Of a stretch of 64,000 nt of DNA, positions 883 to 16,040 are shown piece by piece. Location: the NCBI RefSeq assembly GCF_003590835.1, contig NZ_QYUQ01000002.1:2914001-2978000 (forward strand), written 5' to 3'. The stretch comes from Noviherbaspirillum sedimenti. GTDB lineage: Bacteria; Pseudomonadota; Gammaproteobacteria; Burkholderiales; Burkholderiaceae_D. The notes beneath the pieces are model-generated. The model made no database searches and was not told the DNA's origin. It saw only the letters and a program-made list of their open reading frames with translations. How positions within the stretch are numbered: the stretch's first letter is position 1; each line of letters opens with the position of its first letter. Both the position numbers and the translations under genes were made by a program.

Positions 883-1149
883 TCATTTCCAGAACAGCGT
901 AAATTCTTCTGCCGTCTCATCGACATGACCGGAAATGCTGATCAGGTGCAGCTGCAGTTCTTGCAGATCAAAGTCACGTCCGATTTTTTCTTCCACGGTT
1001 TCGCGTTTGATGACCATCCGGCCGGGAACGTCCACCTTGACCATTGCCGGCTGTTCGTTGACGATTGCCGTGGGGTTGTCTTCGACAATGGCGGCGATAA
1101 TTGCGCGGCTTTCGTCGCTGGCCTGCAGAGCAATGAATACGTTATGCAT
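883..1149 (-). CDS. dmpM: Phenol hydroxylase regulatory (effector) protein
   Basis: This 88-aa protein has the length and sequence character of the cofactor-free coupling protein of phenol hydroxylases (DmpM/PhM). That protein docks on the hydroxylase and tunes di-iron reactivity. Recognisable stretches are MHNVFIALQ at the start and VEEKIGRDFDLQELQ in the middle. The ATG at 1149 follows a GAGGAG Shine-Dalgarno. It sits 9 bp after dmpL and 33 bp before dmpN, the standard L-M-N order, so it is surely co-transcribed. Nothing suggests inactivation. Confidence 0.92.
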   Translation of the reverse strand: MHNVFIALQASDESRAIIAAIVEDNPTAIVNEQPAMVKVDVPGRMVIKRETVEEKIGRDFDLQELQLHLISISGHVDETAEEFTLFWK

Positions 1150-1158
1150 GGCGGCTCC

Positions 1159-2154
1159 TCAGATTGACAGGCCGAGCCTGGCGGCACGCGCATTGAATGC
1201 ATCGACAACGACATTGAGCGTTTCATTAGCCTCCGATTTCAATGCCTTCATCACCAGCGGCACCAGTGCTTCGACAGCACGCTCACGCCAGTAAGCCGCC
1301 CACTCCGACAACAACGCCTTGTTTTCTTCCGATTCTGCCGCCGCCGTCTTGATGCACGCGTCAATCCACTTGCTGGTTTCCACGTACCAGTCGGTCATGA
1401 ATGATGTGACCATGGCGATTGGCGCGCCCCCGGAAGTCGTCATCTTCTTGTCAATGACGTTTTGATAGACGAGCGGGTAAAGCAAGCCGTCGAGCACGAA
1501 ATTTTGTGCAACGAACAGCTCGAACCAGTCCTTTTTGACCAGCAGATTTTCTGTATAGCGACGCAGCCCTTGCCATTTCGGATTGACCAGCCATGCCTGC
1601 TTTGCGGAATCGAGCGCGTTGGCATCCGCCAGAAGGAGACCGATCCTGGTCAGGTACTGTGCAATGGCAAGATGGTCCATCGCATGAAATGTGCAGGGCT
1701 GGGTGATTGCGGTGCCGTATCCATACGCGCAGATATAGGTATTGTTCAGGTTGCCGCCCCATGCAAGGTGGCGTAAAGGCAGCAGTAGTTCGAGCGCTTG
1801 CTGCGTGACTTCCTCAGACAGCTGCTCGGTCAGATTGCGTGACTCGACAAAAACAAATCCTGCCTCGACTGCCTCATGCTGGCGCGCACGCGCCATTGTG
1901 TAGGTGCCATAGTAGAACTGGCGCGGATCCTTCAGCGCATACCAGTCCTTCATCACGATTTTTGTCCGACGCGGATCGTACAGCTCGTGGTCCGGATCCC
2001 ATGTCGGGCGATAATGAAAATGCTCTGTCGGCTGAACGTCAAACGTCCCTTCCTGATATCGGGTCGCTGGCTTGTCACCGCCGATACGCTTTGCGATATG
2101 GTCAAAAGTCTGTCTTAATGGTTTGATGCTGACAGTGCGCAAATCGAGTTGCAT
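1159..2154 (-). CDS. dmpL: Phenol hydroxylase beta subunit
   Basis: This 331-aa protein corresponds to the small hydroxylase subunit (beta) of the (alpha-beta-gamma)2 phenol hydroxylase. It has the ferritin-like fold of the alpha subunit but no iron-binding motifs. The N-terminal region, with HFHYRPTWDPDHELYDPRRT and the following MKDWYALKDPRQFYYGTYT, is characteristic of DmpL/PhL. The ATG at 2154 is preceded by GAGGAG. Length matches the family (about 330 aa). It lies between dmpK (43 bp upstream) and dmpM (9 bp downstream). Confidence 0.93.
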   Translation of the reverse strand: MQLDLRTVSIKPLRQTFDHIAKRIGGDKPATRYQEGTFDVQPTEHFHYRPTWDPDHELYDPRRTKIVMKDWYALKDPRQFYYGTYTMARARQHEAVEAGFVFVESRNLTEQLSEEVTQQALELLLPLRHLAWGGNLNNTYICAYGYGTAITQPCTFHAMDHLAIAQYLTRIGLLLADANALDSAKQAWLVNPKWQGLRRYTENLLVKKDWFELFVAQNFVLDGLLYPLVYQNVIDKKMTTSGGAPIAMVTSFMTDWYVETSKWIDACIKTAAAESEENKALLSEWAAYWRERAVEALVPLVMKALKSEANETLNVVVDAFNARAARLGLSI

Positions 2155-2197
2155 GTGTTCTCCTCTATATTGTGGCGGCTGGTATTAGTTGCATTAA

Positions 2198-2485
2198 TCA
2201 ATGCCTGGACTTGAATCTTTCCGTGGTGGCGTCATGCAAATTCCATGACCATTCCTCGTCGCCCGGCGAAATCATTTTTTCGCCTACGAGAATCGTCACC
2301 TTATTGGCTAAACAGAACGCGTCGAACGCTTCATCCGCAAGGATTAACTCGACGAACAGCTCTGGCTCTCCGACGGAAAAATCAAATTCAATGAAGCCGT
2401 CACTACGCAGCTCGCGAATACGCACATACTTGTGTGCGGGATTAAACTGATTGACGGCCGTGCGATTTTTTTTATCGGATATCAT
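2198..2485 (-). CDS. dmpK: Phenol hydroxylase auxiliary/assembly protein (DmpK-like)
   Basis: I start this 95-aa protein at the ATG at 2485, which overlaps the stop of the upstream ferredoxin gene in an ATGA junction. A longer open frame extends back to 2593 but runs into the ferredoxin. DmpK-type proteins are small and aid assembly or iron loading of the hydroxylase; they are not needed for turnover in vitro. The stretches HKYVRIRELRSDGFIEFDFS and GDEEWSWNLHD fit that family. Translational coupling to the ferredoxin suggests matched synthesis. Confidence 0.85.
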   Translation of the reverse strand: MISDKKNRTAVNQFNPAHKYVRIRELRSDGFIEFDFSVGEPELFVELILADEAFDAFCLANKVTILVGEKMISPGDEEWSWNLHDATTERFKSRH

Positions 2486-2883
2486 CGCATCTGCCCCGAA
2501 TGAATCGTCTGATGGGTTGACGTCGCCAGGAGGCGCTGCCCCAGTCTGCCGATAGCGCAGACCTGCAAGTCGCTGGCCGGATAGACGCAGCACGCGAGCA
2601 GACGCCCGGATCGCTCGTCATCTTCGCTGACGTGACGACGACTCATTTGCCGGGTATGCACCTGGCCAGATAGCACTTCCACCTTACAGACACCGCAACC
2701 GCCACCACGACAGCCCACCGGGATGCCTTTTTTCCCGGTACGTGCGATTGCCGCCAACAATGTCTCGCCTGCCTTGCAAGCTACGGTCTCGCCGCTATTG
2801 GATAGCCGGACCGTGAATTGGTACGCTGCGATTTGCCCAGACGTAGTAGTTGGCGTCTGCGCAAACATCGATGAAGCTGTCAT
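2482..2883 (-). CDS. Plant-type [2Fe-2S] ferredoxin of the phenol operon (DmpQ/XylT-like)
   Basis: This 133-aa protein has the plant/chloroplast-type 2Fe-2S signature: CRGGGCGVCKVEV in the middle with a fourth cysteine near ACCVYP. Ferredoxins of this kind in phenol and meta-cleavage operons (DmpQ, XylT) re-reduce the oxidised iron of catechol 2,3-dioxygenase. Here it is the first gene of the operon, directly behind the sigma-54 promoter, and is coupled by an ATGA overlap to dmpK. In the Pseudomonas dmp operon dmpQ lies after dmpP. No catechol 2,3-dioxygenase is visible in the window, so the partner is inferred. It could instead serve an electron-transfer role. Confidence 0.85.
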   Translation of the reverse strand: MTASSMFAQTPTTTSGQIAAYQFTVRLSNSGETVACKAGETLLAAIARTGKKGIPVGCRGGGCGVCKVEVLSGQVHTRQMSRRHVSEDDERSGRLLACCVYPASDLQVCAIGRLGQRLLATSTHQTIHSGQMR

Positions 2884-2957: not shown

Positions 2958-2973
2958 AGCAACGACCATGCCA
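2958..2973 (-). promoter_or_regulatory. Sigma-54 (-24/-12) promoter of the phenol hydroxylase operon
   Basis: On the minus strand the sequence is TGGCATGGTCGTTGCT. It matches the sigma-54 consensus TGGCACG-N4-TTGCW at every specified position except one (T for C at position 6). The GG and GC elements have the required spacing. It lies about 75 bp upstream of the first gene of the operon. Sigma-54 control is established for dmp-type operons and agrees with the DmpR-like activator gene nearby. Confidence 0.85.
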
Positions 2974-3039
2974 GCATTTAAGTGATTGATTTTTATAATA
3001 TTTTTATTCAATCCACGTTTAGCCATGCGGGATGGCATG

Positions 3040-3081
3040 ACGCAATGGTTCACGCCAACGCAGTGGTGTACGAATCCGTAC
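3040..3081 (-). promoter_or_regulatory. Candidate upstream activator sites for the DmpR-like protein
   Basis: The palindrome GTACGAATCCGTAC (3068-3081) is centred 103 bp upstream of the -24 GG. A weaker related site, ACGCAATGGT (3040-3049), lies 30 bp nearer the promoter. The same arrangement recurs before the Rieske operon. Two sites about three helical turns apart, 100-150 bp upstream, is how XylR/DmpR-type activators bind. Assignment to this activator is inference. Confidence 0.55.
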
Positions 3082-3339
3082 AGCGATTAAAAGACGCGCG
3101 CACCCGGCATCAGTGCTGTCGCCTCGCGGTAGCAGCGCGTGCGAGATTGGCCTTACGAGGGAGAGATGCATGCCAGTACAGAGACAGCGAATACTGCGTT
3201 ACGTCTGGCGACATGCCCGAGGCTGCAAAAGCATCTTGGCAATGCGGACTGATAGAAAAATCAGCCGATGGGAATTGCGTTGGGTCGATTGCTGGTGGTC
3301 TGCGCGACGCACCAGCAGGTGGAAAGAGCCTTGAAGCTA
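3082..3339. other. Intergenic stretch between activator sites and the IS element
   Basis: I see no gene or clear signal here. A rightward open frame crossing 2982-3350 lacks a ribosome binding site and any recognisable protein character. It also crosses the sigma-54 promoter's upstream region, so I treat it as chance. Confidence 0.5.
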
Positions 3340-3352
3340 GTGGACTGTAACA
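3337..3352 (+). repeat. Left terminal inverted repeat of the IS630 element (with TA target)
   Basis: This 16-bp sequence is perfectly inverted at 4431-4446. The TA at 3338-3339 is the presumed target duplication. Confidence 0.85.
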
Positions 3353-4443
3353 TTTAAAAACGAAGTATACTCATGCTCATGGAGGGCATGATGATACTCA
3401 CCAAAAGCGAACGCATGGAGCTCCAACAACAGGTCAGTGCGAGGAATGGACGGGCAGATACTGCACGTCGCGCCCGGCTGATTTTGCTGCTGGCCGATGG
3501 CCATACCTGGGCCGATATCCGCGCCAAGCTCGATTGCAGCGACAGCTTCATTGATCTCTGGAGCAAGCGTTTTTCCGCAGACCGGCTTGCCGGACTGTTT
3601 TCGCGCCATGCCGGGCGGGAACGCTACAAGGTCACCGACCGCATCGAGGCACGCGTCCTGGCCCGAACCACGAAACACAAACCGGCCGATGGTTCGACGC
3701 ACTGGTCGACACGCAAGCTGGCTGCCGAACTGGGCGGGGGGATTTCGCACATGGCGGTCGCGCGCATTTGGACCAAGCATGGCATCAAGCCGCATCGCCT
3801 CGAAGGCTATCTCGCCTCCAACGATCCCGACTTTGAAACCAAGGCCGCCGATGTGATTGGCCTCTACATGAATCCGCCCCAGCACGCGGCCGTGTTTTGC
3901 GTGGACGAAAAAACTGCGATCCAGGCGCTGGATCGGAAAGACCCAGTGCTGCCGTTGTCGCCCGGACGCGCCGAACGCCATGGATTCGAATACTACCGGC
4001 ACGGCACGCTGTCGTTGTATGCCGCCTTCAACACCAGGACTGGCGAGGTGCTGGGCAAGACCGCTGTGCGACACACCTCGGCTGAGTTCGTGGCCTTCCT
4101 CACAGACATCGTCGCCAACCAACCCAAGGGCAAAGAAATCCACGTCATCGCCGACAATCTCTCCGCGCACAAAACCAAGCTCGTCGCGGCATTTCTGGAG
4201 GCGCATCCCACGGTGCATATGCATTTCACTCCTACATATTCATCCTGGCTGAATCAGGTCGAACTGTGGTTTGCAAAAATCGAACGCGACGTCATTGCGC
4301 GGGGCGTTTTCACATCGCTGACTGATCTCAAGAGAAAACTCATGCGTTACATCCGTCACTACAACACCCAGCCAAAGCCAGTGAAGTGGAAGTACTTCGA
4401 TCCAAGCAAGCGAATCACTCCCGAATCAATTGTTACAGTCCAC
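3340..4443 (+). mobile_element. IS630-family insertion sequence
   Basis: The element is about 1.1 kb, with one transposase gene and terminal inverted repeats. CTAGTGGACTGTAACA at 3337-3352 is the exact reverse complement of TGTTACAGTCCACTAG at 4431-4446. IS630-family elements duplicate a TA target. TA is present on both flanks (3338-3339 and 4444-4445), so I place the element between them; the flanking C and G also happen to pair. It sits 9 bp beyond the 3' end of the dmpR-like gene and about 390 bp upstream of the phenol operon's sigma-54 promoter. It looks intact. Confidence 0.88.
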
Positions 4444-4446
4444 TAG
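3373..4446 (+). CDS. IS630-family transposase
   Basis: The protein is up to 357 aa. An N-terminal helix-turn-helix region (about residues 10-75) is followed by a DDE domain. Its candidate catalytic residues are D178 (FCVDEKTAIQ), D261 (VIADNLSAHKT) and E297 (SWLNQVELWF). These are the signature stretches of IS630/Tc1-mariner transposases. The start could be 3373, or one of the ATGs at 3388/3391, which lie right behind GGAGGG. The stop codon TAG is made of the duplicated TA target plus the first flanking base, so the reading frame ends only through its insertion site. The gene appears full length. Confidence 0.9.
   Translation: MLMEGMMILTKSERMELQQQVSARNGRADTARRARLILLLADGHTWADIRAKLDCSDSFIDLWSKRFSADRLAGLFSRHAGRERYKVTDRIEARVLARTTKHKPADGSTHWSTRKLAAELGGGISHMAVARIWTKHGIKPHRLEGYLASNDPDFETKAADVIGLYMNPPQHAAVFCVDEKTAIQALDRKDPVLPLSPGRAERHGFEYYRHGTLSLYAAFNTRTGEVLGKTAVRHTSAEFVAFLTDIVANQPKGKEIHVIADNLSAHKTKLVAAFLEAHPTVHMHFTPTYSSWLNQVELWFAKIERDVIARGVFTSLTDLKRKLMRYIRHYNTQPKPVKWKYFDPSKRITPESIVTVH
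4431..4446 (-). repeat. Right terminal inverted repeat of the IS630 element (with TA target)
   Basis: This is a perfect inverted copy of 3337-3352. It overlaps the last codons and stop of the transposase gene. Confidence 0.85.
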
Positions 4447-4454
4447 ATGTACAG

Positions 4455-6134
4455 CTATTCGCCGGCGCTCTCCGGCCGCTTGGAAAGCCTGTATGACAGT
4501 TGGCGGCGCGTGATGCCGAGAAGGCGTGCGGCATGGGTGAGGTTGCCGTTTGCCTTGTCCACAGCAAATTTCAATAGGCTATCCTCGTGGGCATTGAGAT
4601 CAAAACCATCACTCAACAGCTGCTCGTAATCGTCTGGTGTCCTGACATCCGATTTGCCGTGCAAGTGGCCGTCACTGGCGATCTCTTGGCCTTCTCTCTG
4701 CAGTTGCTCGATCTGGGCAAATAAATCGTCCACTTCAATATAGCCGCCCGCCGACACAAGCAATACGCCCCGCTCAATGACATTTTCGAGTTCGCGGATG
4801 TTTCCGGGCCACGAATATTGAGACAGCATGAGAAGCGCACGGTCAGTTATACCTCTGACCTTCTTGTGATACCGCGTGCTATGTTTTTCAATTAGCGAAT
4901 TAATCAGCAAAGGCAAGTCCGCACGCCGCTCGCGCAGCGGAGGTATGGTGATCGGATATGTGGCAAGCCGATAATATAAATCTGCCCGGAAACGTCCGGC
5001 AGCAATAGCATCCTGCAAGTTCACATTGGTCGCCGCGACAAGACGCACATCCACCTGGAAAACCCGATTGTCACCGAGCCGCTCCACTTCGCCGGTTTGC
5101 AATACCCGCAAGAGCTTGACTTGTGCTGCCAGGCTCATTTCGCCTACTTCGTCCAGAAACAGCGTGCCGCCGTTGGCACGTTCGAAGCGGCCGGGCCTCG
5201 ATTGGTCTGCCCCTGTATAGGCTCCCTTGGTTACGCCGAACAATTCTGATTCGATCAGATCATGCGGAATCGCAGCGCAGTTAATCGCCACAAACGGCTT
5301 GTCTGCGCGTGGTCCGTTATCATGCAGCCATCGCGCGAAACGCTCCTTGCCCACCCCGGTTTCGCCCAGCAGAAGTACGCTGATAGCACTTGGCGCAGCC
5401 TTGCTGACAAGGTTAAATGCCTTGCGAAAGCCGTCCGATACGCCGATAAGGCTGCCCGGCATCTTCTCACTCGATAAGGTTTCGCGTAATTGCGCGACTT
5501 CTTCCCGCAACTCCGTTAACTCTCCCTGGATGTTGTCGGGACGGAAATAGCACAGATAGTCGGGGTCATCCCAATCTTCTGCCAGCTTGCCGACGATGCG
5601 ACAATTCGCCGCCCCGCAAGCTTTGCATTCCATTTCGCGAAAAATGACGAGTTTATTGGTGAAGGCTGTTGCATAACCAGACGCATAGCCAATCTGGGTC
5701 CAACAAGCATGCTCATTGCCGATGCCGAATTGCTGAATATGCGCTTCGGCTTCGCTGGAATATTCCCAAATGAACTCACCGTGATAAGCGCCTTGCTCAA
5801 GATTGATTTTCGAGTCCACAGCACGCACTTTCACCATGCCTTCAAGCATGTGCATTTCCGCACCCAGTAGAAAAACGTCTTCCAGAGCATTGTCTCCGAC
5901 GATTCTCTTTGCTAGTTCGGCATCTTTTTTGCCTGACTCAAAGCCCATCCGCACCAGAAGCCCACGTGCCCGCTCGACGCCGAGGGAATCGAACAATTCC
6001 TTGCGCAAGGCACCGAACGCTTGCGCATGAAGTAAAAACATCCGGTTTTCATGAAGCCATATTTCGCCATTTTCCGGATCGAAGCGAAGCCGCGAGCGCA
6101 AATTCAAACGCTCAATTAGGCCTGTCAATTTCAT
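4455..6134 (-). CDS. dmpR: Sigma-54-dependent phenol-responsive activator (DmpR/MopR/XylR family)
   Basis: The 559 aa comprise an N-terminal sensor (XylR-N/V4R, ~1-200), a linker (~200-225), an AAA+ domain (~228-460) and a C-terminal Fis-type helix-turn-helix. Walker A is GETGVGKE (257-264) and Walker B GGTLFLDE (322-329). The sigma-54-contacting loop reads GAYTGA (304-309) instead of the common GAFTGA. Residues aligning with the phenol contacts of MopR (His106, Trp134) are H95 and W123. The MopR zinc ligands correspond to C144, E167, C170 and C178 with identical spacing. It therefore should sense phenol directly. It is transcribed in the same direction as the phenol operon, not divergently, and an IS630 copy separates the two. 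Confidence 0.93.
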   Translation of the reverse strand: MKLTGLIERLNLRSRLRFDPENGEIWLHENRMFLLHAQAFGALRKELFDSLGVERARGLLVRMGFESGKKDAELAKRIVGDNALEDVFLLGAEMHMLEGMVKVRAVDSKINLEQGAYHGEFIWEYSSEAEAHIQQFGIGNEHACWTQIGYASGYATAFTNKLVIFREMECKACGAANCRIVGKLAEDWDDPDYLCYFRPDNIQGELTELREEVAQLRETLSSEKMPGSLIGVSDGFRKAFNLVSKAAPSAISVLLLGETGVGKERFARWLHDNGPRADKPFVAINCAAIPHDLIESELFGVTKGAYTGADQSRPGRFERANGGTLFLDEVGEMSLAAQVKLLRVLQTGEVERLGDNRVFQVDVRLVAATNVNLQDAIAAGRFRADLYYRLATYPITIPPLRERRADLPLLINSLIEKHSTRYHKKVRGITDRALLMLSQYSWPGNIRELENVIERGVLLVSAGGYIEVDDLFAQIEQLQREGQEIASDGHLHGKSDVRTPDDYEQLLSDGFDLNAHEDSLLKFAVDKANGNLTHAARLLGITRRQLSYRLSKRPESAGE

Positions 6135-6407
6135 TTCTGTGTGTCTCCGTTATAGTTCACGGGCGAGCGCCACGCCTGATGGCAGAAGCATACGTCCGTA
6201 TCGCGAGACATGTCCCTCAGGATTAGCTGTGACGAGGGCGTCTGCGATCCATAGTCTAACCTACTGTGGTATATAGTATGCTGCCAAAAACGGGGAAATT
6301 TTTCCTCCGAAACATCCGGAAAGCGCGGCTATCCAACCACCTGCTTGTCGCCGCTTTCATCGCAGATTGAACCACTCGTTCACTTCACAGAGGAGTATTG
6401 GATAGGC
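6135..6407. promoter_or_regulatory. Divergent control region between dmpR-like and lysR-type genes
   Basis: This 273-bp region must hold promoters for both divergent genes. An AT-rich core near 6265-6290 (TATATAGTATGC) is a candidate promoter or LysR-type T-N11-A site. I see no near-consensus sigma-54 motif here. No exact promoter can be assigned. Confidence 0.4.
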
Positions 6408-7304
6408 ATGGAATTCCGCCACTTGAAATATTTCATTGCAGTCGCAGAAGAACTCCATTTTGGACGTGCGGCAGTTGCTCTGCACATTTCGCAGCCTCCG
6501 TTGACACGACAGATTCAACAACTGGAAGAGGCAATTGGCGTCCAGCTGTTCATACGCACGCCCAAGGGTGTCGAACTGACTCAGGCAGGCGAGCTGCTGC
6601 TGCAGGAAGGCAAGAATCTATACTCGCTGATAGAACAAACAGTAGAACGGACCCGGCGTGCTGGCCAGGGAAATCTTGGCCGCATCGACATCGCCATTTT
6701 CGGCTCAGGCACGCTGGATGTCATTCCCAAACTGTTACTACGCTTCCGTACCATCTATCCAGATGTGAATGTTGTGCTGCACACCATGGTAAAGAGCGAG
6801 CAGATCAATGCATTGCGGCAACGAAGAATCACTGTGGGCTTCAACCGTCTGCTGGAGCCTTATCCGGATATTCGCAGCGAGCCGGTAACAACCGAGCCAA
6901 TCGTGGTTGCTGTGAGCACGCAGCATCCGTTGGCGGAAGAAGAAGAAATTGAGTTACAGGCGCTAAAGAACGAACCAATGGTTTTGTTTCCGACTGGCGC
7001 GCGACCAAATTTCATCGACAAGGTCATGGATCTCTGCCGAGGAGAAGGCTTCCTTCCGATCGCATCACAATCGGTTGGAGATGCTGTCACCGGCATTGCG
7101 CTTGTCGCCAGTGGCTTTGGAATTTCATTGGTGCCAAAGTCTGCTACCACTTTACAGCTGCCCGGTGTTGTCTATCGCCCGTTGAAAAATGCCCCTAATG
7201 CAGTAGTCGACTTGAGCTGCATCTATCGGCATGACGACGAGTCGCCGATTCTGAAGGCATTCCTCGAAGTCGTCAGATCGTTTCACAATGAAAGCATGTT
7301 TTAA
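6408..7304 (+). CDS. LysR-type transcriptional regulator of aromatic catabolism type
   Basis: I start at the ATG at 6408 (MEFRHLKYFIAVAEELHFGR), 298 aa, because it begins the canonical winged-helix domain and follows GAGGAG. An upstream in-frame start at 6345 would add an unlikely 21 residues. The HTH (FGRAAVALHISQPPLTRQIQ) is followed by a periplasmic-binding-protein-like effector domain (~90-295). The whole resembles the CatR/BenM/CbnR branch, which usually answers to muconate or other aromatic metabolites. It is divergent from the dmpR-like gene and lies upstream of the Rieske operon. Its target is unknown and could be a downstream catechol pathway outside the window. Confidence 0.88.
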   Translation: MEFRHLKYFIAVAEELHFGRAAVALHISQPPLTRQIQQLEEAIGVQLFIRTPKGVELTQAGELLLQEGKNLYSLIEQTVERTRRAGQGNLGRIDIAIFGSGTLDVIPKLLLRFRTIYPDVNVVLHTMVKSEQINALRQRRITVGFNRLLEPYPDIRSEPVTTEPIVVAVSTQHPLAEEEEIELQALKNEPMVLFPTGARPNFIDKVMDLCRGEGFLPIASQSVGDAVTGIALVASGFGISLVPKSATTLQLPGVVYRPLKNAPNAVVDLSCIYRHDDESPILKAFLEVVRSFHNESMF

Positions 7305-7377
7305 TTGCCGCCACGCACGATGTCCGGGCACACATTGCTGTACCCGGGCATGTGCAGGTTAATGCCCCCCGCGATCA

Positions 7378-7418
7378 ACGAATTCGTCACGCAGATGCAT
7401 ACAGCGTAACGAAAACGT
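7378..7418 (+). promoter_or_regulatory. Candidate upstream activator sites of the Rieske/rubredoxin operon
   Basis: The perfect palindrome ACGAATTCGT (7378-7387) is centred 103 bp before the -24 GG. ACGAAAACGT (7409-7418) lies 31 bp closer to the promoter, about three helical turns. Motif and distance match the site upstream of the phenol operon. Binding by the DmpR-like protein is inferred. Confidence 0.6.
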
Positions 7419-7483
7419 CAAGCTCAGCCCCCATAGCTAATAGCGAACCACAAAAAAATCTTAAGAATCAATGGCTTAAGTTT

Positions 7484-7499
7484 TGGCCTGTTTATTGCT
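7484..7499 (+). promoter_or_regulatory. Sigma-54 (-24/-12) promoter of the Rieske/rubredoxin operon
   Basis: TGGCCTGTTTATTGCT fits TGGCACG-N4-TTGCW with correct GG-GC spacing; only positions 5 and 6 of the first block deviate. It lies about 100 bp upstream of a 38-codon ORF and 220 bp upstream of the first long gene. No sigma-70-like promoter is as convincing in this interval. Confidence 0.82.
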
Positions 7500-7597: not shown

Positions 7598-7714
7598 ATG
7601 ATACCTAAAGGTATTTTGCATACTGGCACGCTCACAATCCATATCACGACCGGGCATCAAGCCACCATCAATAGGACGGCAGTCTTGCCACGCATGCTTC
7701 GGCAAGGAGATTGA
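7598..7714 (+). CDS. Possible small protein or leader peptide, 38 aa
   Basis: The ATG at 7598 follows a strong GAGGAG Shine-Dalgarno with 8-nt spacing. The frame runs 38 codons (begins MIPKGILHTGTLTIHI) and ends at a TGA 3 bp before the next gene's start. The reading frame spans the whole interval between leader and gene. It contains no obvious membrane segment and no amino-acid run of the kind used in attenuation. Function unknown. It is either a real small protein of the operon, a translational leader, or chance. Confidence 0.45.
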   Translation: MIPKGILHTGTLTIHITTGHQATINRTAVLPRMLRQGD

Positions 7715-7717
7715 ACG

Positions 7718-8119
7718 ATGACGACCAATCGCTTATTGCCGGAAGGCTTCGAGAACCTGGAGCCGTTCGTCGGCTATTGGGTGCGCGACACAAATAATGA
7801 ACGCTGGAAACAGCGTTCATTGGCATCCATGGAAGACATCCGCAGTTTTTATGATGCCATGCTTGCCCGGGCTGAAGACGCCATCACCCATCTCGACAAG
7901 TTCCCGCTCGATCAGATGCCCGAAGATGCTGAACGCCTCTTCAAACTACTTCTGGCCATCGCGCATGCCGCCATGGCTGTCGAAATTCATGGGCAGCCAA
8001 GAGCACGTAATGCGAAATTGCGGAACGACCTGAACGTAACGCAGGGCCCCTGGCCATTCGGCGGAGTACGCAATGGCGGCGATCATCAGAAAACTATCGG
8101 AAATAAAGAGGTGGGGTAA
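7718..8119 (+). CDS. Conserved protein of unknown function preceding a Rieske oxygenase
   Basis: This 133-aa protein starts at an ATG with AAGGAGA upstream. It is a soluble, mostly alpha-helical, acidic protein with no signal peptide and no metal-binding cysteine motif. Its last base is shared with the start of the Rieske gene (TAATG), so the two are translationally coupled. It is not a ring-hydroxylating dioxygenase beta subunit by sequence or length (those are ~160-190 aa). I do not recognise a described function. Coupling suggests a chaperone, small subunit or regulator of the oxygenase. Confidence 0.8.
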   Translation: MTTNRLLPEGFENLEPFVGYWVRDTNNERWKQRSLASMEDIRSFYDAMLARAEDAITHLDKFPLDQMPEDAERLFKLLLAIAHAAMAVEIHGQPRARNAKLRNDLNVTQGPWPFGGVRNGGDHQKTIGNKEVG

Positions 8120-9393
8120 TGAACGACATGACAATCGGGGCAGGCATTGAAGAGGCAGGTGCAAAGGAAAGCTTCACGCTCGCGGCAGGACTGTCCACCG
8201 AACCGGTTCCGGTGGATTCGTATATTTCTCCGGATTTTTTTGAACTGGAAAGAAAGCGCGTCTTCGGCAGGGCCTGGCTGTTTGTGGGACGAGTCGACCA
8301 ACTCCCCGAAGAAAACAGCTACTTTGTCAAGGAAATCGATATTTGCAAGGCATCGGTGCTGGTGACCCGTAACGAAGCAGGCAAAGTACAGGCCTTTCAT
8401 AATGTCTGTTCCCATCGCGGCAATCTGGTGGTTAACGATGACTGTGGAACAAAAAAGCGCTTTCGCTGCGAGTATCATAACTGGACCTACCAAAATGACG
8501 GTGCGCTGATCGGCGTGCCAGACCAGAAAAACTTCTTCAATCTCGACAAGAAAAAATGTGGCCTGACACCGATTGCGACCGGTGTCTGGGAGGGCTGGAT
8601 TTTCGTTAACATGCAACGCGAACCGGAAATCAGTCTCGAAGAATTTTTAGGACCCTATGGCAAAGCCTATGCCGGCGTACCATTCGGGGAAGACCATGAA
8701 ACATTGGTCATTGAAGCGCGCTTCAATGCCAACTGGAAGCTGATCATGGATGCATTTGCCGAGTCTTACCATGTCCCGGCAATTCACCCCGGCACGCTGG
8801 CACCAGGATTCGCAAATCCGGTGCACAACAAATATGCACGGCCGTTGAGCGGAAATACATTCGGCCTGCATGCCGCCTGGTCCGCTTACGGCAATCCGGA
8901 GTACGCTCCGCCACCCGACTCGGAAGTGGAACGTATCGCCTGCAAAATTGATACCGGCGGCCTGCTGGGCAGCGATGTGAACGACGAGGTTCTGCGACTG
9001 CGGGCGCACCCGGCAATCAATCCAACCAAAGAGTCCTGCTGGTCGGCAGACGTCACCTCAATCTTCCCCAATTTCAATATCGATTACTCGACCGGCGGTT
9101 ACTGGACGCACGAATTCTGGCCACTGTCCCGCGACGCGACACATTGGATTCTCACCATCCGGATACCGAAGGCAAGCTCGGTTCGTCACCGGCTGCAGCT
9201 GGAACACTATGCCGCCCGCTGGGCTGAAATCGTACTCGAAGACGTTACCAACTGCGAGCGCATCCAGAAAGGCCTGGAATCCGGCGCCAAGGACGTAATG
9301 ATTCTGCAGGACGGCGAATTCATGATCCGCCATATGCAGGAAACCCTGCGCAAATGGGTCAATGCCGAAACTGTCGCCGATGCAATGAAGTGA
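8119..9393 (+). CDS. Rieske-type aromatic ring-hydroxylating oxygenase, alpha subunit
   Basis: The 424 aa have an N-terminal Rieske [2Fe-2S] domain with C97-x-H99 (NVCSHRGN) and C117-x2-H120 (RCEYHNWTY). The C-terminal catalytic domain carries the mononuclear iron histidines H218 and H223 in ESYHVPAIH, with an acidic bridging residue (E215) where naphthalene dioxygenase has Asp205. The third ligand is probably the Asp of [11 protein letters not shown]. Ring oxygenases hydroxylate or cis-dihydroxylate aromatic or other cyclic substrates; the substrate cannot be read from the sequence. No beta subunit, Rieske ferredoxin or classical reductase lies nearby. Instead rubredoxin and a rubredoxin-type reductase follow. 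Confidence 0.92.
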
Positions 9394-9460: not shown

Positions 9461-9631
9461 ATGAATAGATGGGTATGCGTGATATGTGGCTGGGAATATG
9501 ACGAAAGCAAGGGCATGCCTGAACATGGCGTTCCACCCGGCACCCGCTGGGAAGATATTCCCGACGACTGGGAATGTCCAGACTGTGGCGTAGGGAAAGC
9601 AGATTTCGAAATGGCCATGGTTGCAACTTAA
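9461..9631 (+). CDS. Rubredoxin
   Basis: This 56-aa protein is complete, with the four iron-binding cysteines in the two rubredoxin knuckles: C6-V-I-C9-G and C39-P-D-C42-G. It also has the typical [14 protein letters not shown] region. A GGAA-containing ribosome site lies a little upstream of the ATG. Rubredoxins of this aerobic type carry electrons from rubredoxin reductase to oxygenases such as AlkB. Here the gene lies 67 bp after the Rieske oxygenase and 33 bp before the reductase, so its natural partner is probably that oxygenase. Confidence 0.95.
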
Positions 9632-9664: not shown

Positions 9665-10807
9665 ATGCAACCGATCATCATTGTCGGCAGTGGACTTGCG
9701 GGATATACCGTCGCACGGGAATTTCGCAAACTGGACGCAACCACACCATTGAAAATCGTCAGCCGTGACTGCGGCAGCTTTTATTCGAAGCCAATGCTGT
9801 CCAATGTCTTTCATCAAAAAAAAGACCCTGCCAAGATCGCCAGCTATTCCGCTGCTCAAATGGCCGAGCAGTTGCACGCCGAAGTACTTCCCTACAGCAG
9901 TGTGACGGCACTGGATCCGGCGACCCGCACCATCCAGATCAACCACCAGGACACCGGCTACCAATCGCTGGTGTTAGCACTGGGTGCCGACCAACGCCGA
10001 ATCGATCTTGCCGGCGATGCGGCAGAAGACGTACTGTCGGTCAATGACCTGGCGGACTATCTCCGCTTCCATACCTTGCTGCATGACAAGCGCCGAGTAG
10101 CGATACTAGGTGCGGGCTTGATCGGCTGCGAGTTTGCCAATGATTTGACAAGCGGCGGCATCACGGTCGATCTGATCGATCCGGCGTCTTGGCCATTGAG
10201 CCGTTTTTTACCAGAGCCCGCCGGACAGGTGATGGCGGATGCGCTGAGCGGCATCGGCGTACAGTTGTGGCCAGGCTGCACTCCGGTGGCTGTCGACCGC
10301 AGCGATGATGGCTACCGCCTGTCGCTCTCTGGCGGGAAATCACTTCAGGTCGATCTGGTGCTGTCGGCAATCGGGCTTGTACCACGAATTATGCTGGCAC
10401 AGGCCGCCGGCCTGACGACTGCGCGCGGCATCGTGACAGATGCCTGCTTGCGCACGAGCGCCGAGCATGTTTATGCAATCGGCGATTGTGCCGAGGTCGA
10501 AAACCTGCTGCTACCGTATGTGATGCCAATCATGCAGTGTGCCCGCGCATTGGCCAAAACGCTGTTCGGCACGCCTGCCAAGGTAACTTATCCTGCAATG
10601 CCCGTGGTCGTCAAAACCCCTGCAATGCCAACCGTGGTAGCACCGCCATTGCAACAAGACGGCGCCTGGGAAACTGACGGGAAAGCAGGCAGCATGCGCG
10701 CCGTATACCGCAACGCCGACAGTAGCGTGGGCGGCTTTGCACTGTTGGGAGACCGTGTAGAAGAGAAGGGCGCCTTGTTAAAGCAAATAGCGCCTTGGCG
10801 CATCTAG
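9665..10807 (+). CDS. FAD-dependent rubredoxin/ferredoxin-NAD(P)+ reductase
   Basis: The 380 aa form a two-dinucleotide-fold pyridine nucleotide-disulphide-type reductase without a redox disulphide. FAD site: IIIVGSGLAGYTVAREF (residues 4-20). NAD(P)H site: VAILGAGLIGCEFANDL (~145-161). The second FAD motif is TSAEHVYAIGDCAEV (~263-277). Size and motifs fit the rubredoxin reductases (AlkT/RubB/RdxR) better than the ~410-aa ferredoxin reductases of dioxygenases. It completes an NAD(P)H-reductase-rubredoxin-oxygenase chain within one operon. Confidence 0.88.
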   Translation: MQPIIIVGSGLAGYTVAREFRKLDATTPLKIVSRDCGSFYSKPMLSNVFHQKKDPAKIASYSAAQMAEQLHAEVLPYSSVTALDPATRTIQINHQDTGYQSLVLALGADQRRIDLAGDAAEDVLSVNDLADYLRFHTLLHDKRRVAILGAGLIGCEFANDLTSGGITVDLIDPASWPLSRFLPEPAGQVMADALSGIGVQLWPGCTPVAVDRSDDGYRLSLSGGKSLQVDLVLSAIGLVPRIMLAQAAGLTTARGIVTDACLRTSAEHVYAIGDCAEVENLLLPYVMPIMQCARALAKTLFGTPAKVTYPAMPVVVKTPAMPTVVAPPLQQDGAWETDGKAGSMRAVYRNADSSVGGFALLGDRVEEKGALLKQIAPWRI

Positions 10808-11052: not shown

Positions 11053-11352
11053 ATGTCCATGAATCTTGTTGTTCTCATCAAAATTAAATATGGGCGTGTC
11101 GAAGAAGCCGTCAGTATTCTTAAAGAGATAGCGCAGTTTCTTGAGCCTCACGGCTGGAAGCTGCTCGCTTCCTACACCCCATTCATAGGAGATTTGGGCC
11201 ATCTCTATGATATTTGGGAAGTGCCGGATGCAAACGCCGTACCGAATGCTCTCACGGCTCTTGCTGGCAATAAAAAATGGGAGGAAGTCTTCGCTCGCTG
11301 GAGCGATGTCTGTGAATCAGAGCACATCTCCGTCTGCGCAAAAGTGATCTAG
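11053..11352 (+). CDS. NIPSNAP-family-like small protein
   Basis: This 99-aa protein starts at an ATG behind AAAGGAG. It has the ferredoxin-like alpha/beta arrangement of NIPSNAP/dimeric alpha-beta-barrel proteins: strand MNLVVLIKIKYG, helix, strand WKLLASYTPFIGDLGHLYDIWEV and helix AVPNALTALAGNKKWEEVFARW. Such proteins are often found in aromatic or polyketide pathways without a proven reaction. It is 245 bp from the reductase gene, with its own palindromic leader, so it may be a separate unit of the same catabolic block. Confidence 0.7.
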   Translation: MSMNLVVLIKIKYGRVEEAVSILKEIAQFLEPHGWKLLASYTPFIGDLGHLYDIWEVPDANAVPNALTALAGNKKWEEVFARWSDVCESEHISVCAKVI

Positions 11353-14703: not shown

Positions 14704-16040
14704 CCTTTGAGTACCTTTTCAAATACGCTGTGCGTGCGCTCGGCCAGCAGGTCGATTTCCTGTTCATCGAGGATATACGGCGGCATCAGGTAGACCGTGG
14801 TGCCGATCGGACGCAGCAGCAATTCATGCTCGAGCGCGGTGGTGAAGAAACGGCGCGAGAAGCTTTGCGCCTGCTGTGCATCGTCGATCACCGCATCGAA
14901 GGCCCAGATCATGCCGCGCTGGCGGAAATGACGCACCTGTTCGTGCTGCGCCAGCGGCGCCAGCGCCTGGGTAATACGCGCGGCCTTGTCGCGGTTGCGA
15001 TTCAGGACATCGTCTTCCTCGAAGATCGCCAGGGTCGCCAGCGCAGCGCGGCACGCCAGCGGATTGCCGGTAAACGAATGCGAGTGCAAAAAGCCGCGCG
15101 CGACATCCCGATCGTAGAAGGCCTGGTAGATCGCATCGGTGCTCATCACCAGCGACAGCGGCAGGTAGCCGCCGCTGATGCCCTTGGACAGGCACAGGAA
15201 GTCCGGCCAGATGCCGGCCTGCTCGCAGGCGAAGAAAGTGCCGGTGCGGCCGTTGCCGACCGCGATCTCATCGGCGATCAGGTGCACGCCGTAACGGTCG
15301 CACAGGGCGCGCACCTCGCGCAGGTAGGCAGGGTCGTGCATGGCCATGCCTGTTGCGCACTGCACCAGCGGCTCGACGATTACTGCGGCAATGTGGTCGG
15401 CGCGCTCCTGCAGCAATCGCTCCAGATCGCCGGCGGCGCGCAAGGCGACATCCGCCGCCGATTCGCCATCGCGCGTAGCGCGGGCATCGGGGCTGGCCAC
15501 CACGTGCACCTGCTGCAGCAGGCTGCCGTAGGCTTCGCGAAACAGCGGCACATCGGTGACCGCCAGCGCGCCCAGGGTCTCGCCGTGATAACTGTTCTTG
15601 ATGCAGACGAATTCGCGCTTGCTCGCACGGCCGCCATTGCGCCAGGCGTGCACGCTCATCTTCAGGGCGATCTCGACGGCGGAAGCGCCATCGGAAGCGT
15701 AGAAGCAATGGCCGAGGGCGTGGCCGGTGCGCTGCGCCAGCTGCTCGGAAAGCTCGATCACCGGCTCGTGGGTGAAGCCGGCCAGCATGGCATGCTCGAG
15801 GCGGTCGAGCTGGTCTTTCAGCGCTGCATTGATGCGCGGATTGGCATGGCCGAACAGGTTCACCCACCAGGAACTGATGGCGTCCAGGTAGCGCCGGCCG
15901 TCGGCGTCATACAGCCAGGCGCCCTGGCCACGCGCCACCGGCACCAGCGGCACGTTTTCATGATGCTGCATTTGCGTACAGGGATGCCAGACGCTTTTCA
16001 GGCTGCGGGCGATCCAGTCGGCTTGTTTACTTTGTTCCAA
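14700..16040 (-). CDS. bioA: Adenosylmethionine-8-amino-7-oxononanoate aminotransferase
   Basis: This class-III PLP aminotransferase converts KAPA to DAPA with SAM as amino donor. The 446 aa carry HPCTQM and [13 protein letters not shown] in the N-terminal part, the PLP lysine in [15 protein letters not shown] and [15 protein letters not shown] later. The start appears to be a TTG at 16040, which has GGAG seven bases upstream; there is no ATG nearby. The 5' end overlaps the crotonase gene by 43 bp. Overlaps on both sides point to a polycistronic unit with bioF. Confidence 0.95.

Follow-up and report, generated by a model that had tools for sequence, protein, structure and literature searches.

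Does one regulator serve two catabolic operons that lie apart in a 64,000-nucleotide stretch of the Noviherbaspirillum sedimenti genome (RefSeq assembly GCF_003590835.1, contig NZ_QYUQ01000002.1, positions 2,914,001 to 2,978,000; the whole stretch is called the window), and through which DNA sites would it reach them? One operon, on the minus strand, encodes a phenol hydroxylase, and the other, on the plus strand, a Rieske oxygenase with a rubredoxin; the dmpR and lysR genes lie between them. We consider it probable, at roughly three chances in four, that a phenol-responsive DmpR-type regulator, belonging to a clade marked by an arginine in the recognition helix (R clade), reads TTGAC-N6-GTCAA and drives both operons jointly via sigma-54. 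The promoters, the paired dyads, their spacing, their conservation in a relative and the co-variation of site with clade are read directly from the sequence.

As a preliminary description of the locus had proposed, near-consensus −24/−12 promoters precede both operons. On a scale that we built, the phenol hydroxylase promoter (TGGCATGGTCGTTGCT, minus strand, read from 2973 down to 2958) scored 14.9 of a maximum of 14.9, a full consensus match, and the Rieske promoter (TGGCCTGTTTATTGCT, plus strand, 7484–7499) scored 13.9. Upstream of the phenol hydroxylase promoter, a distal dyad (CTGTACGGATTCGTACAC, minus strand, 3066–3083; core decamer ACGAATCCGT, 3070–3079) is centred 103 bp from the −24 GG and scored 12.8 bits with an out-of-family matrix; a weak proximal dyad (GTGAACCATTGCGTCATG, minus strand, 3036–3053; 7.8 bits) is centred 73 bp from the GG, 30 bp nearer. 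The Rieske promoter carries the stronger of the two pairs, with a distal dyad at 103 bp (ATCAACGAATTCGTCACG, plus strand, 7374–7391; core decamer ACGAATTCGT, 7378–7387; 12.3 bits) and a proximal dyad at 72 bp (CGTAACGAAAACGTCAAG, plus strand, 7405–7422; core decamer ACGAAAACGT, 7409–7418; 13.7 bits), 31 bp nearer. The distances, remeasured, thus agree with those first described: 103 bp at both operons, with a second copy 30–31 bp closer.

The strength of these sites lies in the pair. The bare decamer ACGAATTCGT has 10 matches with at most one mismatch in the 64 kb, against 1.62 expected, and at least one of them, at 15607, falls inside a gene; we rejected the decamer count as evidence, since the decamer is over-represented in the window. 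We measured chance with a dyad matrix learned from 17 R-clade promoters outside the window genome and outside a relative, G112, which is probably a Glaciimonas. The best single site was matched by 12 and 7 of 1000 shuffles at the window promoters (3 to 12 of 1000 across the four promoters of the window and G112), and the pair score was unmatched in 1000 of 1000 shuffles at each of the four. The pair, and not the lone decamer, therefore carries the evidence. A scan of the window for a pair with a sigma-54 promoter, using a matrix that includes the window sites, returned two matches, both at the known promoters. A whole-genome pattern scan gave 21 matches, against 8 in a backward control; 20 of them were scored with a matrix that had seen the window sites, and the best outside the window's two combined a first site of 6.4 bits with a second of −9.0. 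The earlier argument that so similar a geometry is unlikely by chance holds for the pairs, but the spacing is standard for the family and not special to these operons.

Between the dyads and the −24 elements lies a further element, centred 14 bp from the GG at both the phenol hydroxylase promoter (AATCAATCACTTA, minus strand, 2979–2991) and the Rieske promoter (AATCAATGGCTTA, plus strand, 7466–7478). We take WATCAANNNNTTR/AATCAATnnnTTA to be a perfect match to the consensus of integration host factor (IHF). A perfect WATCAANNNNTTR occurs 14 bp from the GG in all four promoters of the window and G112, and such a match arises in 13 to 21 of 1000 shuffles of each promoter. In the wider set, a AATCAATnnnTTA/G element 14–16 bp upstream of the −24 GG was found in 6 of 34 promoters (the two of the window, L103, L075, L155 and L081; L numbers denote fetched stretches), and several others show one-mismatch or degenerate forms at a similar position. 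The WATCAANNNNTTR element lies close to the edge of the polymerase; an IHF site and an upstream element are both possible readings of it.

The pairs are conserved in G112. With the out-of-family matrix, its phenol hydroxylase promoter scored 7.9 bits at 103 bp and 18.0 at 72 bp, and its Rieske promoter 16.9 bits at 102 bp and 14.2 at 71 bp, although the Rieske operon of G112 lies about 25 kb from dmpR. A pair thus precedes the Rieske operon in both R-class genomes found with that operon. Loss of the palindrome or of its spacing in orthologous operons, which the preliminary description had contemplated, was not seen, the G112 pairs standing at 102–103 and 71–72 bp.

The dmpR-like gene (4455–6134, minus strand) lies between the operons, as first described, and encodes a protein of 559 amino acids. 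Pfam matches identified the XylR_N and V4R sensor domains (PF06505, 2e-37; PF02830, 2.7e-9), a sigma-54 AAA+ domain (PF00158, 4.9e-68) and a Fis-type helix-turn-helix (HTH; PF02954, 1.6e-8) with the recognition helix GITRRQLSYRL. The AAA+ loop reads GAYTGA, against GAFTGA in DmpR. A His and a Trp align with those of DmpR (6iy8; EMHMLEG/QLHSLKG and EFIWEYS/EMEWIDS), and in our reading, guided by PMC10715001 (published sources here and below are cited for the portions consulted), they would be the residues that hold the phenol hydroxyl. The window genome has one XylR_N match. The sensor domains, the AAA+ and HTH domains, and the −24/−12 promoters with palindromes about 30 bp apart are those of the XylR/DmpR subfamily; the half-site is TTGAC-type and not TTGATCA-type. 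If the GG lies at −25/−24, the proximal dyads would be about 97 bp from the start site, near the lower bound of the 100–200 bp range. A matrix for TTGATCAA-type sites (P matrix) gave at most 5.7 bits on the window sites, against 7.8–13.7 bits for the out-of-family R matrix; together with the TTGAC half-site, this indicates that, as to its site, the window regulator is a variant and not a plain XylR/DmpR member. The preliminary description had set the motif apart from the TTGATCAA-rich sites of DmpR and XylR. That distinction stands as regards the TTGAC half-site, but the frame is the same and only inner base pairs are changed: the window motif appears to be a specificity-shifted version of the family motif, TTGAC-N6-GTCAA in place of TTGAT-N6-ATCAA.

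To place this shift among relatives, DmpR homologues were collected from 399 genomes of the order (19 with a match at 1e-100), five genomes of the G112 genus (one at 1e-140), 369 genomes of the class (three at 1e-180), 199 genomes of a further family (57 at 1e-180) and 74 of another (four at 1e-180); the window genome is counted among both the 399 and the 369, and neighbourhoods were fetched for part of the homologues. The recognition-helix residue that follows [S/T]R sorts the proteins read into two classes, R (TRRQL or SRRQL) and P or A (TRPQL or TRAQL), with two G cases besides. Identity to the window protein is 56–100% in the R class and at most 56% in the P/A class. In a tree of 64 proteins built without the HTH, the 23 R sequences, whose labels agree with the helices read, form one clade (support 100/97) that requires one change, and its nearest neighbours are P; the helix of L085 is TRPQL (P). 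A further DmpR-like protein, of the G class with LGLGRGQFEYRR as part of its recognition helix, lies near lysR and an R-class dmpR in L155 and L156.

The half-sites differ between the classes. In a count of all 1024 half-words, TGTAA, GGTAA, TGTCA and CGTAA came out on top for the 21 R-class candidate promoters, followed by AGCAC and AGCAG and then by AGTCA and CGTCA; for the 43 P/A candidates, the top words were GATGA, GGTGA, GGTCA and GATCA. Symmetric motif discovery from three seeds, each class's wrong seed included, converged on different half-sites: [T/A]T[C/T]GTCAA for R and [T/A]TGATCAA for P/A. At position 4, numbered from the dyad axis outward, the R motif has G at 0.98 and the P/A motif A at 0.70. 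We also used a class-neutral choice: each promoter's best pair was taken on a score blind to positions 3 and 4, with a cut of 12. Position 4 was G in 60 of 60 R-class half-sites (15 promoters of 21 candidates), and A in 75, G in 19, C in 5 and T in 5 of 104 P/A half-sites (26 promoters of 43); the 6 R-class and 17 P/A-class candidates below the cut may be chance sigma-54 matches. The promoter set leaves out L148 and L149, near copies of L077, and L126, the same gene as L157, and two G-class promoters were not counted. Geometry is shared: 14 of the 15 R-class promoters have their pair at 102–108 and 71–78 bp, most near 105/75, and several P-class pairs lie at 105–109 and 74–78 bp. Two R-class promoters outside the training set, in L145 and L155, carry pairs at 106/75 and 106/76. 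A cross-scan at 20 bits, with matrices to which many of the scanned loci had contributed sites, found an R match in 18 and a P match in 2 of 26 R-class stretches, and a P match in 21 and an R match in 2 of 35 P-class stretches; the R set includes L075 (among the 18), L104 and L160, which hold no dmpR, and the near copies L077, L148 and L149.

Genomes with two regulators provide an internal comparison. Within one family, an R-class protein was read in 18 genomes, and 14 of these have a second homologue at 1e-180; all 14, as well as the second copy of G112, are of P or A type. Ten of the 15 paralogues could be assigned a promoter with a pair, at 115–117 and 85–88 bp from the GG; of the 40 half-sites, 35 have A and 5 have G at position 4. 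Eight genomes allowed both phenol hydroxylase promoters to be read: the R sites carry G in 32 of 32 half-sites, and the P/A sites A in 28 and G in 4 of 32. The P sites of this set come from the class-neutral choice; the matrix used to pick the R sites includes position 4 in its score, and the class-neutral choice gives the same sites in five of the eight, with L148 and L149 being near copies of L077 and L145 resting on the matrix alone. Base composition does not explain the class split, because the sites of P/A paralogues stay TTGATCAA-like within the very same genomes.

On the model of XylR/DmpR behaviour (PMC7264223, PMC6449761), phenol would bind the sensor domain of the DmpR-like protein, and upstream of both operons one regulator dimer would dock on each dyad, the two dyads being separated by about three helical turns. 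The phenol-bound regulator would then assemble, its AAA+ assembly would remodel sigma-54 polymerase at −24/−12, and phenol hydroxylase, with the meta pathway, would be made together with the Rieske/rubredoxin oxygenase. In the simplest reading, the arginine after TR would contact the G of the G.C pair at dyad position 4. Binding, the response to phenol and the causal role of the arginine are what we infer here. The joint regulon, as suggested at the outset, is well supported as a prediction, the motif matching the regulator's own clade. The odds seem even to us for a wider proposal: that a proline-to-arginine change recoded the enhancers (A.T to G.C at position 4) and so insulated the clade from paralogues in the same cell that read TTGATCAA and control a second phenol hydroxylase, and that the recoded regulon gained the Rieske/rubredoxin oxygenase as an additional part of phenol catabolism.

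Several observations weigh against joint control by an R-clade regulator through its own enhancer motif. The proximal phenol hydroxylase site of the window and the distal one of G112 are the weak members of their pairs (7.8 and 7.9 bits), and the P matrix detects, at 80 bp in the phenol hydroxylase promoter of G112, a site of 12.2 bits. No pair was seen in the fetched stretch at six R-class dmpR loci (L076, L142, L143, L154, L156 and L158). G also stands at position 4 in some P-class half-sites, and the top P/A half-words include GGTGA and GGTCA; the A-to-G switch between the classes is for this reason a strong shift, not an absolute one. The R clade arose once, so that residue and site became linked in one evolutionary event only, and the cause could lie in other changes of the HTH. 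Besides the window genome, one R-class genome with the Rieske operon (G112) was found, and in L033 and L035, which have P-type DmpR, no clear dyad pair was found before the Rieske genes.

The single origin gives weight to the most serious alternative, namely that the dyads are bound but that HTH positions apart from the arginine, or drift of the sites within one lineage, account for the changed preference. The HTH does vary (TRRQLS in the window, G112 and L154–L156, TRRQLA in most others, TRRQLD in L153), and the helix starts differ between the classes, THAAR-like against SAAAR-like. On the other hand, where the helix has A, not P, in the position of the arginine, most half-sites carry A at dyad position 4 (4 of 4 in L091, 3 of 4 in L093, 3 of 4 in L186 and 4 of 4 in L189), and the TTGATCAA-like sites of paralogues in the same genomes argue against base composition. 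We regard this alternative as a real but lesser possibility.

A second alternative accepts the phenol hydroxylase site as functional and takes the Rieske pair for a relic, or for a response to another signal, with no joint regulon. The rarity of the Rieske operon lends it some substance: in a search of 399 genomes of the order at E 1e-110, the oxygenase was found in the window genome alone, with none in the 398 others. In 294 genomes of the family, G112 matched at 5.7e-260, and among the matches listed the next best reached 1.6e-76 at 35% identity, with some partial matches up to 39%. The missing pairs in L033 and L035 point the same way. Yet of the window's two pairs the Rieske pair is the stronger. 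Its sigma-54 promoter is good, the pair persists in G112 despite the distance from dmpR, and we consider this alternative improbable. Orthologous Rieske genes also sit in the phenol/catechol clusters of three other lineages, with genes labelled by similarity to those of the window genome; these lineages have other regulators and tie the Rieske genes to phenol catabolism by a different route. In L032, an 8.9-kb contig that starts 138 bp before the Rieske gene, catechol 2,3-dioxygenase comes after that gene and phenol hydroxylase is also present; L033 has phenol hydroxylase, a gene for a 133-amino-acid protein, the Rieske gene, DmpC, E, H, F and G, and catechol 2,3-dioxygenase; and in L035 dmpR is divergent from catechol 2,3-dioxygenase, the 133-amino-acid gene and the Rieske gene. 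A fourth stretch, L034 (4.8 kb), shows the Rieske gene alone. The analysis predicts that the Rieske/rubredoxin oxygenase would belong to phenol catabolism.

The palindromes might instead be sites of the neighbouring LysR-type regulator (6408–7304, plus strand; Pfam HTH_1 and LysR_substrate), activating or repressing both operons. Its gene is divergent from the adjoining dmpR and directly upstream of the Rieske operon, and a lysR homologue shares the fetched stretch with an R-class dmpR in L103, L076, L151, L155 and L156. But the same motif and spacing occur at R-class promoters without lysR in the fetched stretch (e.g. L140, L144 and L147), and the motif tracks the DmpR clade. LysR sites usually lie close to the promoter. 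They are also T-N11-A palindromes (PMC6449761), unlike pairs 30 bp apart about 100 bp upstream of −24. LysR as the binder was set aside on the clade-wide motif and the site architecture alone, and we give it only a slim chance. Coincidence of the matched geometry, for which the excess of bare decamers could be cited, is hardly credible in view of the shuffles, the two matches in 64 kb and the conservation in G112.

Downstream of the Rieske promoter are a 133-amino-acid protein (7718–8119, plus strand), a Rieske non-heme iron oxygenase alpha subunit (8119–9393, plus strand; Pfam Rieske and Ring_hydroxyl_A), a rubredoxin (9461–9631, plus strand; assigned from its own sequence) and a rubredoxin reductase (9665–10807, plus strand; Pfam Rbx_binding). 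The 133-amino-acid protein has no Pfam or NCBIfam match, and a functional name is attached to none of the 64 proteins in its similarity listing (query included); a homologue adjoins a Rieske gene, on one side or the other, in 18 loci examined. The nearest solved relatives of the oxygenase are naphthalene, phthalate and carnitine oxygenases, at low similarity. Rubredoxin and its reductase also follow the oxygenase in G112, and this gene order, with Rhodococcus precedents (PMC5209329), suggests that rubredoxin is the electron donor. A short reading frame at about 7598–7714, preceded by a GAGGAGAC sequence that resembles a ribosome-binding site, separates the Rieske promoter from the 133-amino-acid gene. 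It has a counterpart in L075 at about 10294–10125 and is thus present in both genomes; it is perhaps a leader peptide. A small NIPSNAP-family protein is encoded at 11053–11352, downstream of the reductase gene.

The phenol hydroxylase operon begins with a 2Fe-2S ferredoxin (2482–2883, minus strand; Pfam Fer2), presumably DmpQ-like. The K, L and M genes follow (883–2593, minus strand), K and L with the Pfam matches Phenol_hyd_sub and Phenol_Hydrox and M assigned by reading, as was the partial N gene that crosses the window start. Beyond the window (L160), the operon continues with catechol 2,3-dioxygenase and homologues of DmpP, C, E, H, F and G, which we read as meta-cleavage genes; these names were assigned from the translations, with no family search behind them. 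An IS630-family insertion (about 3337–4446, plus strand; transposase 3373–4446) with 16-bp inverted ends lies between the dmpR stop codon, 8 bp from one end, and the phenol hydroxylase enhancer. It separates the two and harms neither side, leaving dyads and promoter intact; G112 has the same genes without the element at the corresponding place. Neither this insertion nor the WATCAANNNNTTR element figures in the preliminary description.

XylR/DmpR regulators are widely used parts of phenol and toluene biosensors. The classes described here offer natural matched pairs: two regulators and two enhancer alphabets, often in one genome, with one helix residue separating the classes. Such pairs allow direct tests of enhancer specificity, of insulation between paralogues and of orthogonal phenol sensors, and the regulon would bring a little-known rubredoxin-linked Rieske oxygenase into phenol catabolism. 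Neither the TTGAC-N6-GTCAA class nor its link to an arginine was reported in the literature searched, with the supplementary tables of PMC6449761 and most subscription papers outside it, and a prior description is possible; nor did we see a residue-level DNA-reading code for these regulators in the open-access literature searched.

Paired enhancers, sigma-54 control and one regulator for two promoters (HbpR) are already known, as is low cross-binding within the family (HbpR against XylR; PMC3040749). DmpR, MopR, MphR, PoxR and AphR act from two palindromes about three turns apart, 100–200 bp upstream (PMC6449761, PMC3063778, PMC7264223), and share with the window regulator the domain plan, the sigma-54 promoter, the paired palindromes and the control of phenol hydroxylase. 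Their published sites are TTGATCA-type, such as the putative AphR motif GCTTGATCATTTGATCATGC (PMC6449761), whereas the window combines TTGAC-N6-GTCAA with TRRQL. XylR of pWW0 shares the family and the paired enhancer sites (PMC6449761) and differs in its P-type helix, TRPAMAYRL, and in its toluene/xylene pathway. Rhodococcus dioxygenases share the pairing of a Rieske oxygenase with rubredoxin (PMC5209329) and differ in host lineage; given such precedents, we rejected rubredoxin beside a Rieske oxygenase as a novelty. The AphR/TbuT homologues of Betaproteobacteria for which a binding motif was not found, in the portions of PMC6449761 consulted, could be members of motif-shifted groups. HbpR of Pseudomonas azelaica, like the regulator proposed here, serves two promoters, PC and PD, as a single XylR/DmpR regulator, and it shows little cross-binding to XylR sites; it differs in its 37% identity to XylR, in sensing 2-hydroxybiphenyl and in being divergent from its own target (PMC3040749).

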